From contig JANQHK010000028.1 of assembly GCA_028282685.1 (NCBI GenBank), positions 1 to 36,154 of the forward strand: a stretch of DNA of 36,154 nt. The letters are read 5' to 3'. The notes under the pieces are model-generated. The model was not told the origin of the DNA and did not search any database. It saw only the letters and a program-made list of their open reading frames with translations. Below, piece after piece: positions 4,301 through 15,341 of the stretch (within the stretch, counting starts at the first letter, position 1; each line of letters begins with the position of its first letter). The DNA comes from Phycisphaeraceae bacterium. GTDB lineage: Bacteria; Planctomycetota; Phycisphaerae; Phycisphaerales; Zrk34. Made by a program: the position numbers and the translations under genes.

Positions 4301-6250
4301 ATGAGTCCCACACCGCCTCCGCAACCGATTCCCGATGATGGTCAATGGTCGCCCAAACGCTCGGCAGAGTTGTATCGCGTGGACGGCTGGTCCGGCGGGT
4401 TCTTCGATGTCAACGAAATCGGGCACGTGATCTGCAAACCCACGCGCGACGATCAACCCGCGCTCGATCTCCATGAAATCGTGGAGGGCATGGTCGAGCG
4501 CGGTTTCAGTCCGCCGATCATCCTGGCGTTTCCTGATCTGCTGGCCCGTCGCATGGCCGACTTGCGCGATGCGTTCCGGGCCGCCATCAAAGAATGCGAA
4601 TACCGGGGCGACTACGCCGGCCTCTATCCCATCAAGGTCAACCAGCAGCGGTTTCTGGTCGACCAGATCGAGCGTTTCGGGCGCGATCTGGACTTGGGGT
4701 TGGAAGTCGGCTCGAAGCCGGAGCTGCTGGCCGTGCTGGGCATGACCTGTCAGACGCCCGAACGGCTGATCGTCTGCAACGGCTTCAAGGAACGGCGCTA
4801 CGTCGAGCACATCATGCTGGCGACCAAGCTCGGCCGTCGGGTGGTCAGCGTCATTGAAAACCTCAACGAACTGGACCTTGTCATTGAACTGGCGCAGGCC
4901 TATGACGTACGGCCGATCATCGGCGTGCGGGCGCTGATTTCCCAGGTGGGCCCGGGGCGGTGGGGCGTTTCCTCGGGCGAGCGGGCGAAGTTCGGCCTTT
5001 CCGCGCCGGGAATTCTGCGCGTGGTGGAACGTCTCGAACAAGCCGACCTGCTCGACGCCCTGCAACTGATCCACTGCCACATGGGTTCGCAGCTCAGCGA
5101 CATCCGCGCGATCAACGCCGGCGTGAACGAACTGGCGCGCGTCTATGCCGAGCTGTGCAAACTGGGCGCGCCGATGCGCTACATCGATGTCGGAGGGGGG
5201 ATGGGGATCGACTACGACGGTTCGCAGACCGCCTGGGATTTCTCGGTGAACTACACCATGGAGGAGTACGCCGCCAACGTGGTGTACCGCGTGATGAGCG
5301 TCTGCGATGAAGCGGAGGTGGCGCATCCGACGATTCTCACCGAGGCCGGGCGCGCCATGGTCGCGCACCACAGCGTACTGGTGTTCAACGTACTGGGCGC
5401 CAATTGCACCGAGCGCCACCTGCCGCCGGATGACTTTTCGTTGGGCGACCTGTCCGACGAGCCGCCGCGTCCGCTGGAAGATCTGGCCGAAGCGCGGGAC
5501 GACATCACCGCCGCCAACGCCCTCGAACGCTTCCACGATGCGCAGCAGGCGCGCGAAGAGGCGCTGACCCTGTTCAACGTCGGCCACCTGTCCCTGGAGC
5601 ATCGCGCCCTGGCCGATCGACTCTACTGGGCGATCTGCCTGGAGATTCGCGCGCTGCTGGGACAGCTCGATCCGTTGCCCGAGGAGTTGGCCGAACTGCC
5701 GCAGACGATGGCCGACCTGTATTTCGTGAATATGTCGATCTTTCAGTCGCTGCCGGACAGTTGGGCGATCGATCAGGTGTTTCCGATGATGCCGATCCAT
5801 CGACTCGATGAAAAGCCGGACCGCCGGGGTACGCTGGCCGACATCACCTGCGATTCCGATGGCAAGGTCAATCGTTTCGTTGACTACCAGGACGTGGCCG
5901 CCTCACTGCCGTTGCACGCGCTCCAGCCGGGCGAGCCCTATTACCTGGCCGCGTTCCTGATCGGCGCCTACCAGGAAACGCTGGGCGATCTGCACAACCT
6001 GTTCGGCGATACGCATGTGGTGCACGTGGGGATCGGCGAGGACGGAGGATGGGAGGCGCGCGCGTTCGTCGAGGGCGATAGCGTCGAGGAAGTGCTCGGT
6101 TATCTCCAGTACGAGCCGCGCAAACTCTACGAAGCGGTGCGCTGGGATTGCGAACGCTCGGTGCGCGCCGGACGCATGACCGTCGCCGACAGCCGCACGC
6201 TTCTCAAGACCTACGAACGGGGGCTGGAAGGGTATACGTATTTGGAATAA
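4301..6250 (+). CDS. speA: Biosynthetic arginine decarboxylase SpeA
   Basis: 649 aa (E. coli SpeA 658 aa). A PLP-dependent alanine-racemase-fold enzyme that converts arginine to agmatine, the first step of the agmatine route to putrescine. The PLP lysine lies in LYPIKVNQQR (Lys112). Other family motifs are LIHCHMGSQLSDIRAIN (about 256-272), YIDVGGGMGIDYDGS (294-308, the phosphate-binding glycine loop), TILTEAGRAMVAHHSVLVF (about 345-363) and the C-terminal GAYQETLGDLHNLFGDTHVVHV (about 563-584). Full length with no breaks. The ATG at 4301 fits the family start; no clear Shine-Dalgarno is seen. speB follows on the same strand after 166 bases, but that space holds a roughly 100-bp repeat element, so co-transcription is uncertain. 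Confidence 0.97.
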   Translation: MSPTPPPQPIPDDGQWSPKRSAELYRVDGWSGGFFDVNEIGHVICKPTRDDQPALDLHEIVEGMVERGFSPPIILAFPDLLARRMADLRDAFRAAIKECEYRGDYAGLYPIKVNQQRFLVDQIERFGRDLDLGLEVGSKPELLAVLGMTCQTPERLIVCNGFKERRYVEHIMLATKLGRRVVSVIENLNELDLVIELAQAYDVRPIIGVRALISQVGPGRWGVSSGERAKFGLSAPGILRVVERLEQADLLDALQLIHCHMGSQLSDIRAINAGVNELARVYAELCKLGAPMRYIDVGGGMGIDYDGSQTAWDFSVNYTMEEYAANVVYRVMSVCDEAEVAHPTILTEAGRAMVAHHSVLVFNVLGANCTERHLPPDDFSLGDLSDEPPRPLEDLAEARDDITAANALERFHDAQQAREEALTLFNVGHLSLEHRALADRLYWAICLEIRALLGQLDPLPEELAELPQTMADLYFVNMSIFQSLPDSWAIDQVFPMMPIHRLDEKPDRRGTLADITCDSDGKVNRFVDYQDVAASLPLHALQPGEPYYLAAFLIGAYQETLGDLHNLFGDTHVVHVGIGEDGGWEARAFVEGDSVEEVLGYLQYEPRKLYEAVRWDCERSVRAGRMTVADSRTLLKTYERGLEGYTYLE

Positions 6251-6251
6251 C

Positions 6252-6412
6252 TAACCGCAAAGGAATATTTGACAGGATGAACAGGATCAAAAGGATGGTA
6301 AGAACGACGACCGGTCAGGTTAATTGCAGCCGGATATTTCATCCTGTTAATCCTGTCAAAAAAAATTCTGGGTCCCTGGCGTTTCTTTGCGCTCTTTGCG
6401 GTTCGAGGTAAC
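6252..6412. repeat. Left copy of the inverted element flanking speB
   Basis: The core 6262-6365 matches, as reverse complement, 7311-7414 with about five mismatches and one indel in roughly 104 bases. The copy has its own terminal inverted repeats (TTTGACAGGATGAACAGGAT at one end, 19 of 20 matching at the other). At its left end the words are strict nonads of the form AACAGGATG. CCGCAAAG at 6255-6262 and CTTTGCGG-type words at 6384-6402 border the core. It begins two bases after the speA stop codon and ends just before the speB Shine-Dalgarno. Confidence 0.9.
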
Positions 6413-6416
6413 TCCC

Positions 6417-7280
6417 ATGAACGTGATGCGATTCGGCGATTTGCCCGATGAATTGGCTGACTTCGAGCGTGCGGCGGTCGCCGTCCTGCCCGTGCCGTAC
6501 GATGGCACCAGCACCTGGCGCAAGGGCGCCGATCACGGCCCGCAGGCCATTCTCGAAGCATCGGCCAACATGGAACTCTACGACCTGCCCACACGCAGCG
6601 ATGTTTCGCAGCGCGGCATCGTCACGCTCGAACCGCTGGTCTGCGACGCCGGGCCGGAGGTGCTGACCGAACGGATCGACCGGCACATCACCAACCTGCT
6701 GACCGCGGACAAGTTCCCGGTGATACTCGGCGGAGAACATACGGTATCGATCGGCGCGATACTCGCCGCCGCCCGTCGGCATGCCGATCTCTCGGTGCTC
6801 CAGATCGACGCCCACGCCGACACGCGCGAAACCTATGAAGGGTCGCCGTTCAATCACGCCTGCGTGATGGCGCGCGCCCGCGAAGTGGCGTCCATCGTGC
6901 AGGTCGGTATCCGTTCCATGGACGAAAGCGAAGCGGCTCATATCGATCCGCAGCGTTTCTTCCCCGCACACCGGATTGTCGACAACGATGACCGATGGAT
7001 GGATGATGCGATCGACCGGTTGACCGATCACATCTACGTGACCATCGATCTCGACGCGTTCGATTCTTCGATCATGCCGGCCACGGGCACGCCGGAACCG
7101 GGCGGCCTGGATTGGCGCACCGTCGAAACGCTGCTGGAACGCTTGTGCGCCGGCGGCAAACGCGTGGTGGGCTTCGATGTGGTGGAGCTGCTGCCGACGC
7201 CGGGCCTGCATGCCTGCGACTTTCTCGCCGCGAAGCTGGTGTACCGGTTTCTGTCGATGATCTTTGCGGGGAAAGACTAA
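6417..7280 (+). CDS. speB: Agmatinase (ureohydrolase family) SpeB
   Basis: 287 aa from the ATG at 6417, preceded by GAGG at 8 bases; an in-frame TTG further upstream lies inside the repeat and is not used. A binuclear manganese ureohydrolase: GGEHT (105-109), DAHADTR (131-137), FNHACVM (145-151) and TIDLDAFDSSIMP (209-221) supply the metal ligands His108, Asp131, His133, Asp135, Asp211 and Asp213. It should hydrolyse agmatine to putrescine and urea. Neighbouring speA makes this substrate choice more likely than arginase or formimidoglutamase, which share the motifs. The gene is enclosed by two inverted copies of a roughly 104-bp repeat element. Confidence 0.93.
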   Translation: MNVMRFGDLPDELADFERAAVAVLPVPYDGTSTWRKGADHGPQAILEASANMELYDLPTRSDVSQRGIVTLEPLVCDAGPEVLTERIDRHITNLLTADKFPVILGGEHTVSIGAILAAARRHADLSVLQIDAHADTRETYEGSPFNHACVMARAREVASIVQVGIRSMDESEAAHIDPQRFFPAHRIVDNDDRWMDDAIDRLTDHIYVTIDLDAFDSSIMPATGTPEPGGLDWRTVETLLERLCAGGKRVVGFDVVELLPTPGLHACDFLAAKLVYRFLSMIFAGKD

Positions 7281-7290
7281 CCGAAAAATG

Positions 7291-7443
7291 CGCAAAGAAC
7301 GCGGAGTTTATTTTTTTGACAGGATTAACAGGATGAAATATTCGGCTTCAATTAACCTGACCGGTAATCGTTCTTAACCATCCATTTGATCCTGTTCATC
7401 CTGTCAAATATTCCTCTGCGCTGCTTCGTGATCTTTGCGGTTA
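7291..7443. repeat. Right copy of the inverted element flanking speB
   Basis: The core 7311-7414 is the reverse complement of 6262-6365 (about 94% identity counted by eye). CTTTGCGGTTA at 7433-7443 is the exact reverse complement of 6252-6262, the outermost words of the left copy. The element lies between the convergent stop codons of speB (7278-7280) and the deoxyhypusine-synthase-like gene (7449-7451), where its hairpin could also act as a bidirectional transcription block. Confidence 0.9.
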
Positions 7444-7448
7444 CAGTT

Positions 7449-8504
7449 TTACCAACCCAGCACATACGCGAAGATCAGCGGTGCGACGATCGTCGCATCG
7501 GATTCGATGACGAACTTGGGCGTATCCACGTCGAGCTTGCCCCAGGTGATTTTTTCCGTGGGAATCGCGCCGGAGTACGAGCCGTAGCTGGTGGTCGAAT
7601 CGCTGATCTGGCAGAAGTAAGCCCAGTACGGGCACGCTCGGCGCAGATCCTGGTGGATCATTGGCACCACGCAGATCGGAAAGTCCCCGGCAATGCCCCC
7701 GCCGATCTGAAAGAAACCCACCGTGCATTCGGCGTCTTCGGGGCGGACGGTTTGGGTTGCGACAATGCCGCCGTCGGGTGAGCCGGCCTGCTCGGGGGCG
7801 ATTTCGTAGAGATCCTTGCCCGTGGTGGTTTTGACGTACCAATGCGCGAGGTCGCGCATGTACTCGGCGCCGCTGCGCACGAGGTGACAGCCGGACAATT
7901 CACCGGTGATCACGTGGGCGACGAAGATGTTGCCGAGCGTGGAATCCTCCCAGCCGGGCGCCCACATCGGCAGGTTTTTTTCCGCCGCCGCCACCAGCCA
8001 GCTGTCCGCCGGGTCGATCCGGTAAGCGTCCCTGATCCACCCCTCGTTGATCAACTGGTAGAGGTACTGGTGCGGGAAGAAACGTTCATCGCGGTCATCG
8101 GCGCGCTTCCATAACTCGAAGACCTGGCTCTCAATGGCGCGGAACGCTTTGTCCTCCGGAATGCACGTATCGGTCACGCGGTTCAGCCCCGCGTGCTCCA
8201 AATCCTTTTCCTGCTGCGGGGTCAGGTTCCGCCAGTCGGGAATCCGCCGGTAATGATCGTGCGCGACGAGATTGAAAACGTCCTCTTCGAGGTTGGCCCC
8301 GGTGCAGGTAATCGCGTGCACCTTATCCTGCCGGATCATCTCGGCCAGCGACAGACCGAGTTCCGCGGTGCTCATCGCCCCGGCCAGCGTGACCATCATC
8401 TTCCCGCCTGATTCGAGGTGCTTTTCGTATGCCTCGGCGGCCTCGCGCATCGTCGCGGCGTTGAAGTGGCGGTAATGATGCTCGATGAATTTTCGAATGT
8501 GCAT
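7449..8504 (-). CDS. Deoxyhypusine-synthase-family protein, probably a polyamine enzyme
   Basis: 351 aa from the ATG at 8504, where family similarity begins (MHIRKFIEHHYRHFNAATM); the open frame extends 26 codons upstream but those look non-coding, and no Shine-Dalgarno is evident. NAD-binding and active-site features of deoxyhypusine synthase are present: KMMVTLAGAMSTAELG (near residue 35), TCTGANLEEDVFN, and GSYSGA followed by TWGKL, whose lysine (about Lys323) matches the enamine-forming catalytic lysine. Eukaryotic DHS modifies eIF5A, which bacteria lack; bacterial relatives are thought to move the aminobutyl or aminopropyl unit between small polyamines, for example to homospermidine. The gene faces speB, which makes putrescine, supporting a polyamine role. 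It lies downstream of topA on the same strand. The family is sure; the substrate is inference. Confidence 0.9.
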   Translation of the reverse strand: MHIRKFIEHHYRHFNAATMREAAEAYEKHLESGGKMMVTLAGAMSTAELGLSLAEMIRQDKVHAITCTGANLEEDVFNLVAHDHYRRIPDWRNLTPQQEKDLEHAGLNRVTDTCIPEDKAFRAIESQVFELWKRADDRDERFFPHQYLYQLINEGWIRDAYRIDPADSWLVAAAEKNLPMWAPGWEDSTLGNIFVAHVITGELSGCHLVRSGAEYMRDLAHWYVKTTTGKDLYEIAPEQAGSPDGGIVATQTVRPEDAECTVGFFQIGGGIAGDFPICVVPMIHQDLRRACPYWAYFCQISDSTTSYGSYSGAIPTEKITWGKLDVDTPKFVIESDATIVAPLIFAYVLGW

Positions 8505-8584
8505 GGAAAACAGTTTCGATGCAGATGATGTGACGTGCAAGTTTGTGGGAATTGCATGGGCACTGAAGTGACCACGCCTCAAGT

Positions 8585-14502: not shown

Positions 14503-15198
14503 ATGCCGTCCCGCTGTCATTTGCTGAACGATCCGCCGCGCCTGCCGATGATTTTTCCCTCGGTGCTCGGCTGTGACATGACGCGCATTCTCGACGAGTG
14601 CCGTTCGGCCTTTGACGCCGGGGTCGATGCCCTGCACATCGACATCATGGACGGCCACTTCGTGCCGAACCTGACGATGGGCCCGCGGATTGTCCAGTTG
14701 TTGCGCGAGCATTTTCCCGATGCGTATCTCGATGTGCACCTGATGCTGGACCACCCGGAGAAGTTTGTTACGCCGTTCGCCGATGCCGGGGCGAACAACA
14801 TTACTTATCACATCGAGCCGACCGTGGGCCGCGACAAGTTCAACGAGCACGAACTGCTGCGCATGATCCACGGCTGCGGTTGTCAGGCCGGGATCTGCAT
14901 CAATCCCCACACGCCGCCGCAGTCGATCGAGCACCTGCTGATCGAAGTGGACTTGGTGTTGGTGATGAGCGTGCACCCGGGATTCGGGGGGCAGAAGTTC
15001 ATGCCCGAAGTGCTCGACAGCGCCCGCTGGTTGTCGCAGCGCAAGCCGGATCACGTGCGGTTGCAGATGGACGGCGGAATCAACCCGGACACCACCGCAC
15101 TGGCCCGCGATGCGGGGGTGGATGTCATCGTCGCCGGGACGGCATTCTTCCGCAGCGACGACCGCGCCAAAATGTGCGCTACTCTTCGAGGGGAATAA
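14503..15198 (+). CDS. rpe: Ribulose-phosphate 3-epimerase
   Basis: 231 aa (family about 220-230). Interconverts ribulose-5-phosphate and xylulose-5-phosphate in the pentose phosphate pathway; its substrate ribulose-5-phosphate is also what KdsD consumes. TIM-barrel motifs: FPSVLGCDM (18-26; usually APSILSADF), LHIDIMDGHFVPN (44-56) with metal ligands His45 and Asp47, LDVHLM with His79, VMSVHPGFGGQKF (about 153-165) and MDGGIN (about 190-195). The ATG at 14503 gives a 15-residue leader ahead of the barrel; an ATG at 14548 would give the standard start, and neither has a Shine-Dalgarno. The stop codon abuts an octad repeat array. Confidence 0.95.
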   Translation: MPSRCHLLNDPPRLPMIFPSVLGCDMTRILDECRSAFDAGVDALHIDIMDGHFVPNLTMGPRIVQLLREHFPDAYLDVHLMLDHPEKFVTPFADAGANNITYHIEPTVGRDKFNEHELLRMIHGCGCQAGICINPHTPPQSIEHLLIEVDLVLVMSVHPGFGGQKFMPEVLDSARWLSQRKPDHVRLQMDGGINPDTTALARDAGVDVIVAGTAFFRSDDRAKMCATLRGE

Positions 15199-15333
15199 CC
15201 GCAGAGGCGCCGAGTCGCAGAGATGATTCTAAAAAGGAATAATGGAACTGGATGAGTTGAAAATGGAGTGCCGGCCGGGAGTATTGTGAATGAAACGATC
15301 CAAGTGTTACTCTGCGCCTCTGCGTTTCTGTGG
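15199..15333. repeat. Inverted octad arrays between rpe and the HAD gene
   Basis: Three 8-base units at 15199-15222 (CCGCAGAG and variants) face three units at 15310-15333 (CTCTGCGC and variants), the same word on the other strand. The left array starts directly after the rpe TAA; the right array ends nine bases before the next start codon. The 87 bases between show nothing else. Confidence 0.88.
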
Positions 15334-15341
15334 TATTTCTC

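Follow-up and report, generated by a model that had tools for sequence, protein, structure and literature searches.

Inverted palindromes on either side of speB in a Phycisphaeraceae genome as probable gene-less members of a GxxExxY element family

The speB locus and its two repeats

The window, that is, the whole stretch of DNA analysed, comprises 36,154 nucleotides from a Phycisphaeraceae bacterium. It carries on its plus strand the arginine decarboxylase gene speA (4301..6250; Pfam PF02784, PF17810 and PF17944) and speB, a member of the agmatinase/arginase family (6417..7280; Pfam PF00491, 3.7e-68), and on its minus strand a convergent deoxyhypusine-synthase-like gene, dhs (7449..8582; Pfam PF01916). 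This polyamine cluster (window 4301-8582) is common to Phycisphaerales and Acidobacteria MAGs. Both gaps beside speB hold a repeat. Copy 1 (6253..6403, plus strand), a gene-less nested palindrome of nonads with the ends AACC...GGTT, lies between speA and speB and starts 2 nt past the speA stop codon; the C-terminus of the speA product (GYTYLE) is intact and the same as in relatives. Copy 2 (7279..7442, minus strand) is inverted and lies between speB and dhs; the stop codon of speB, TAA (7278-7280), takes its final two letters from the first two bases of this copy.

In both copies the palindrome is nested: the outer arm has the form AACCGCAAAG.../...CTTTGCGGTT, and 9-nt units (GACAGGATN AACAGGATN ...) make up the inner arm. 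The inner arms, built of ACAGGAT nonads, were located at 6268..6291 (plus) and 6337..6360 (minus) in copy 1 and at 7315..7339 (plus) and 7384..7408 (minus) in copy 2, and these inner inverted repeats have 92% identity. Between the copies, two inverted matches were found, one of 66 nt at 94% (6299-6364/7311-7376) and one of 44 nt at 95% (6256-6299/7377-7420), and the longest identical run was 31 bp. An 11-bp outer inverted repeat was also present (TAACCGCAAAG at 6252-6262 and CTTTGCGGTTA at 7433-7443). Thus, the inverted pair, the inner repeats of each copy and the outer repeat described in an earlier sequence-only reading were all recovered. That reading had also proposed a 104-bp element; it corresponds to a homologous core, but the unit is longer. 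Global alignment showed that copy 1 (151 bp) and copy 2 (164 bp) are homologous end to end, from AACC to GGTT; the left arm of copy 1 is interrupted by a 19-nt gap, and one outer arm is less identical. Beyond these ends the sequences are unrelated (23-28% ungapped identity). An assembly artefact is an unlikely source of the pair: the two copies are not identical, and both stand between unique genes within a single contig.

The two copies folded far more stably than shuffled sequences, both as DNA (z of -4.9 and -5.1) and as RNA (z of -4.3 and -5.6). Searching them for a GC-rich stem followed by a T run revealed no site resembling an intrinsic terminator; their stem has a T-run on the left and an A-run on the right, the opposite of a terminator. 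Rfam gave sub-threshold matches only.

The order speA(+) speB(+) dhs(-) was also detected in the Phycisphaerales MAG L074, the Acidobacteria MAGs L076, L077, L079 and L087, and L128. In these relatives the speA-speB gap is 15-108 bp and the speB-dhs gap 6-38 bp, with the exception of L074, where 1.65 kb separates speB from dhs. The nonad element was absent from both gaps in the relatives as judged by reading (the 1.65-kb gap in part). These element-free sites come from genomes whose speB is 60-64% identical, too distant for base-by-base alignment. Relatives with speA beside speB and no element therefore do exist, and the earlier statement that a hairpin leaves speB separated from speA is correct, the element occupying a junction that is short in them. 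The order is therefore old, and both elements were added into existing gaps.

The sequence-only reading had further likened the arrangement to a composite element carrying agmatinase. Inverted copies flanking a single gene would be expected if both had moved speB as one unit. However, gene order and orientation are kept without the elements in another Phycisphaerales genome and in Acidobacteria, speB is single-copy in the source genome and stands in the ancestral orientation, and each copy is independent, with its own ends and in a different gap. The conserved gene order led us to reject a composite transposon and mobility of speB, an explanation to which we assign almost no weight.

A dispersed family of nonad palindromes

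The arms of the speB copies recur throughout the source genome (2.94 Mb). There, 76 matches with at most two mismatches were found for the inner unit pair GACAGGATNAACAGGAT (none for the reversed control) and 113 with at most one mismatch for the outer arm ACCRCMRAGNCRCMRAG (7 for the control); the exact pattern of the full inner hairpin, which was too strict, gave none. Pairing of arms yielded 62 candidates, of which 52-54 elements were used after removal of chance pairs and addition of copy 2; this census consists of pattern matches and is not exhaustive. A genome-wide search for the core had been proposed in the earlier reading, and its outcome was divided: arms occur at dozens of further sites, but the core with its loop was found at only two, copies 1 and 2. 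The consensus element opens with AACC(A/G)C(A/C)(A/G)AG-N-CACAGAG..., followed by an AT-rich spacer; an inner hairpin, of ACAGGAT nonads or of another palindrome, can come next, and the mirror image closes the element with GGTT. Outer arms are more alike within an element than between elements, the observed value being reached in 8 of 20000 permutations. The elements are dispersed, intergenic and palindromic, with conserved ends and unrelated flanks, which supports the earlier comparison with a MITE or a REP-like hairpin. By eye, no target-site duplication was seen in the printed flanks of the elements. Neither an excision nor a fresh insertion was observed.

A third gene-less element lies in the window at 15197..15335 (no strand assigned). 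It starts within the stop codon of a ribulose-phosphate 3-epimerase gene (14503-15198), which its AACC overlaps, and it ends just ahead of the next start codon. Elsewhere in the genome, a nonad palindrome is nested in the loop of another (G000:C120:60913-61163, L261), and a different palindrome, CCCACCTTCGCC..., sits inside a nonad pair (G000:C143:3472-3652, L266). Inner ACAGGAT hairpins and outer CACAGAG arms were also observed in viral contigs (L206-L209, L305-L379) and in distant bacteria (the Planctomycetota and Desulfobacterota MAGs G163, G369, G376 and G387), with G163 having the inner nonads alone, without outer arms. Phage records gave no DNA match to copy 1, and neither phage nor plasmid records gave one to a typical element.

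Placement was analyzed in a stricter set of 39 elements, of whose 78 ends 50 point toward a stop codon and the other 28 toward a start codon. Among the 50 stop-facing ends, 30 lie within 12 nt of the stop, and 15 overlap it by one or two bases, so that the element provides the last letters of TAA or TGA. Gene boundaries came from a simple codon-score caller, which missed at least one gene, the epimerase gene at 14503-15198, and single distances are approximate. Such placement, together with the matching of arms within elements and the strong RNA folds, might point to gene-end structures under selection, for example for protection of mRNA 3' ends or for protein binding between genes, with the GxxExxY genes described below having settled in them and gene conversion keeping the speB copies alike. 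However, the same junctions occur in relatives without elements, the speB copies have no terminator-like site, their bordering T-run and A-run being in the reverse of the terminator order, and the number of arms per genome ranges from 0 to 181 among relatives. We consider selected structures of this kind an improbable origin of the repeats.

The two highest of the 1431 scores for pairs of elements both belonged to neighbors on the same contig. One was the speB pair (inverted, 1.0 kb apart), and the other was a pair on contig C69 (direct, 3.6 kb apart, 94% identical over 130 bp), which likewise has conserved ends and unrelated flanks. The chance that both top pairs are on the same contig or close is about 3e-5 to 9e-5 in a test made after the pairs had been seen. 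In a second genome, G163, no clear repeat of local copying was found. From these comparisons, the speB pair looks like a local duplication. An inverted pair might also act as a switch that inverts speB by homologous recombination: the two copies share about 150 bp of homology in inverse orientation, including an identical stretch of 31 bp, which could permit rare RecA-dependent inversion. However, speB has kept its ancestral orientation, and the similar local pair on C69 lies in direct rather than inverted orientation; an invertible switch is very improbable.

Gene-bearing elements and the GxxExxY link

Arms left unpaired at short range led to two elements on contig C67 that have the same kind of arms, each enclosing one ORF: G000:C67:27596-28058 (L441 3597-4059) and G000:C67:29145-29598 (L441 5146-5599). 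Both ORFs encode GxxExxY proteins (TIGR04256, 1e-43 and 2e-45) and match PF13366 (PDDEXK_3; 2e-41 and 3e-43). The two proteins are 63% identical, and the RMD...ELK core is kept in both. By these matches, the ORF is a clear member of the GxxExxY proteins, and profile and core place it in the PD-(D/E)XK nuclease family; we infer nuclease activity for its product. PADLOC returned a weak Cas4 match only (E 0.008), and the PDB contained no convincing sequence relative. For one GxxExxY protein, no relative was confirmed in viral contigs and none was found in phage records. No GxxExxY element was found to contain the ACAGGAT inner nonads seen in the speB copies. The two elements on C67 enclose hisC, a layout like that at speB, but they are in direct orientation and their ORFs have diverged.

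C67 has a counterpart in G001, a genome of the same family, and the two were compared. Between hisD and hisC, the source genome has a gene-bearing element of 463 bp and G001 a gene-less hairpin of 83 bp (L440 6561-6643), and both begin within the hisD stop codon (TGA and TAA). At the junction downstream of hisC, both genomes have a GxxExxY element that again starts within a stop codon. Gene-bearing and gene-less forms thus occupy one and the same hisD/hisC site, either through internal loss or gain or through separate insertion.

GxxExxY genes were present in 39 of 61 genomes (the source genome and relatives), in up to 7 copies. The association with arms was examined at 58 loci with a GxxExxY gene. 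Some came from relatives; the others came from a second collection of named MAGs, Acidobacteria, Bacteroidota and Desulfobacterota among them. When each 5' flank was scored against its own 3' flank in reverse complement, the mean was 19.1, versus 9.2 for shuffled partners, and the highest mean among 5000 permutations was 11.0; 89 speB loci, used as a control, gave 8.7 versus 8.1. Examples of matched flanks are CACCGCAGAGGACGCGGAGGGCCGCA/TGCGGCCCTCCGCGTCCTCTGCGGTG (L392) and TTTTTAACGCCAAGG.../...CCTTGGCGTTAAAAA (L397). By inspection, iterated nonad-like arms occur at about three quarters of the GxxExxY loci, and about one quarter have no clear nonad arms. Over the 61 genomes, the number of arms correlated with the number of GxxExxY copies (Spearman 0.81; the genomes are related and not independent, so p-values overstate certainty). 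Of 31 genomes with strong GxxExxY matches, 29 have arms; of the 30 without, 4 do. In 21 of the 31, there were more than two arms per GxxExxY copy, and gene-less elements must therefore contribute to the count. Among the matches listed, the arms also differ in wording (GCGAAG in G045, CGCGGAG in G025, CACAGAG in G017 and G042), and such a dialect seems to be common to the elements of one genome.

Alternatively, the repeats could be REP-like palindromes spread by a Y1 transposase of the IS200/IS605 type (RAYT or TIRYT), in which case GxxExxY would be a mere passenger. The REP-like size, the palindromic form and the placement at gene ends are consistent with this explanation, as are four Y1_Tnp matches in the source genome and the TIR-type repeat families tied to such transposases in Acidobacteria and others (PMC3733652). 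However, no pair of nonad elements flanks any of the four Y1 loci, the arms are long and matched, in contrast to short hairpins with a GTAG or CGTC foot, and the gene that sits between the arms is GxxExxY and not Y1. Spread by Y1 enzymes is therefore unlikely, and both it and the selected structures discussed above are less likely than a MITE-like origin. One Y1_Tnp gene (L153, G000:C122) is flanked by direct repeats of about 90 bp, GGTCCGGCTTGGGTAAACATGCACAGTCGATG...GGTCCGGATG, which form a separate repeat family.

Proposed origin and comparison with known systems

The speB repeats are probably gene-less, MITE-like, non-autonomous members of the GxxExxY element family, with mobility, catalysis and a role of the protein in trans being parts of the model that we infer. 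One speB copy may have arisen from the other by local copying across about 1 kb, with the element ends kept as borders; both pre-existing gaps beside speB would thereby have been filled in opposite orientation, while speB itself stayed in place. Gene-less forms could be spread in trans by the GxxExxY nuclease, or by host repair at its cuts. The elements may settle beside stop codons because disturbance is least there, or because the nuclease acts there. That the arms are matched and yet drift suggests that they are copied from each other, which might occur, for example, through a hairpin intermediate.

A broader interpretation, which we put forward tentatively, is that GxxExxY proteins might be the enzymes behind a class of small mobile elements, so far undescribed, in several phyla. 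Such elements would be recognized by a palindrome of drifting, matched nonads instead of by a fixed end sequence, they would settle in or beside stop codons, and gene-less derivatives such as the speB pair would far outnumber gene-bearing copies in some genomes. In the open-access literature, we found no description of nonad hairpins or of a link between GxxExxY and repeats; subscription literature and family-database notes were outside the scope of this search, and the novelty of the link is provisional. The proposal would provide a partner gene for a common and apparently unnamed type of intergenic repeat, as well as a genomic setting for GxxExxY, a widespread nuclease-family protein without an assigned function, and it makes the testable prediction of a nuclease acting on nonad hairpins. 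It would also account for hairpins between operon genes in environmental genomes, which might otherwise be read as regulatory RNAs or composite transposons.

Among known systems, intrinsic terminators differ from the speB copies in having a GC-rich stem followed by a T run. Composite transposons share with the speB pair the inverted repeats flanking one gene, but speB was not moved and its repeats are not insertion sequences. The nearest described analogues are the REP/REPIN sequences associated with RAYT and the TIR families associated with TIRYT; these palindromes lie outside genes, close to gene ends, and are also known from Planctomycetes and Acidobacteria (PMC3733652, PMC6006769). Nonad elements share with them the dispersed palindromes at gene ends; however, they lack the GTAG/CGTC foot, have much longer, nested arms and are not associated with the Y1 genes of the source genome. 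The ORF of the gene-bearing elements belongs with the weakly Cas4-like GxxExxY proteins (TIGR04256; PF13366, PDDEXK_3), whose models give no function. MITEs differ from the nonad family: the nonad arms are long and made of iterated 9-nt units, whose letters vary between elements and match within one, and the partner ORF belongs to the PD-(D/E)XK nuclease family and to no known transposase family. The speB copies and their family nevertheless resemble MITEs in being short, gene-less, dispersed and intergenic, with terminal inverted repeats and a gene-bearing relative in the same genome. The speB and C69 pairs, with their conserved ends and unrelated flanks, are MITE-like as well, and so is the sharing of ends with the gene-bearing GxxExxY elements of C67, whose gene would be the mover, and the alternation of the two forms at hisD/hisC.
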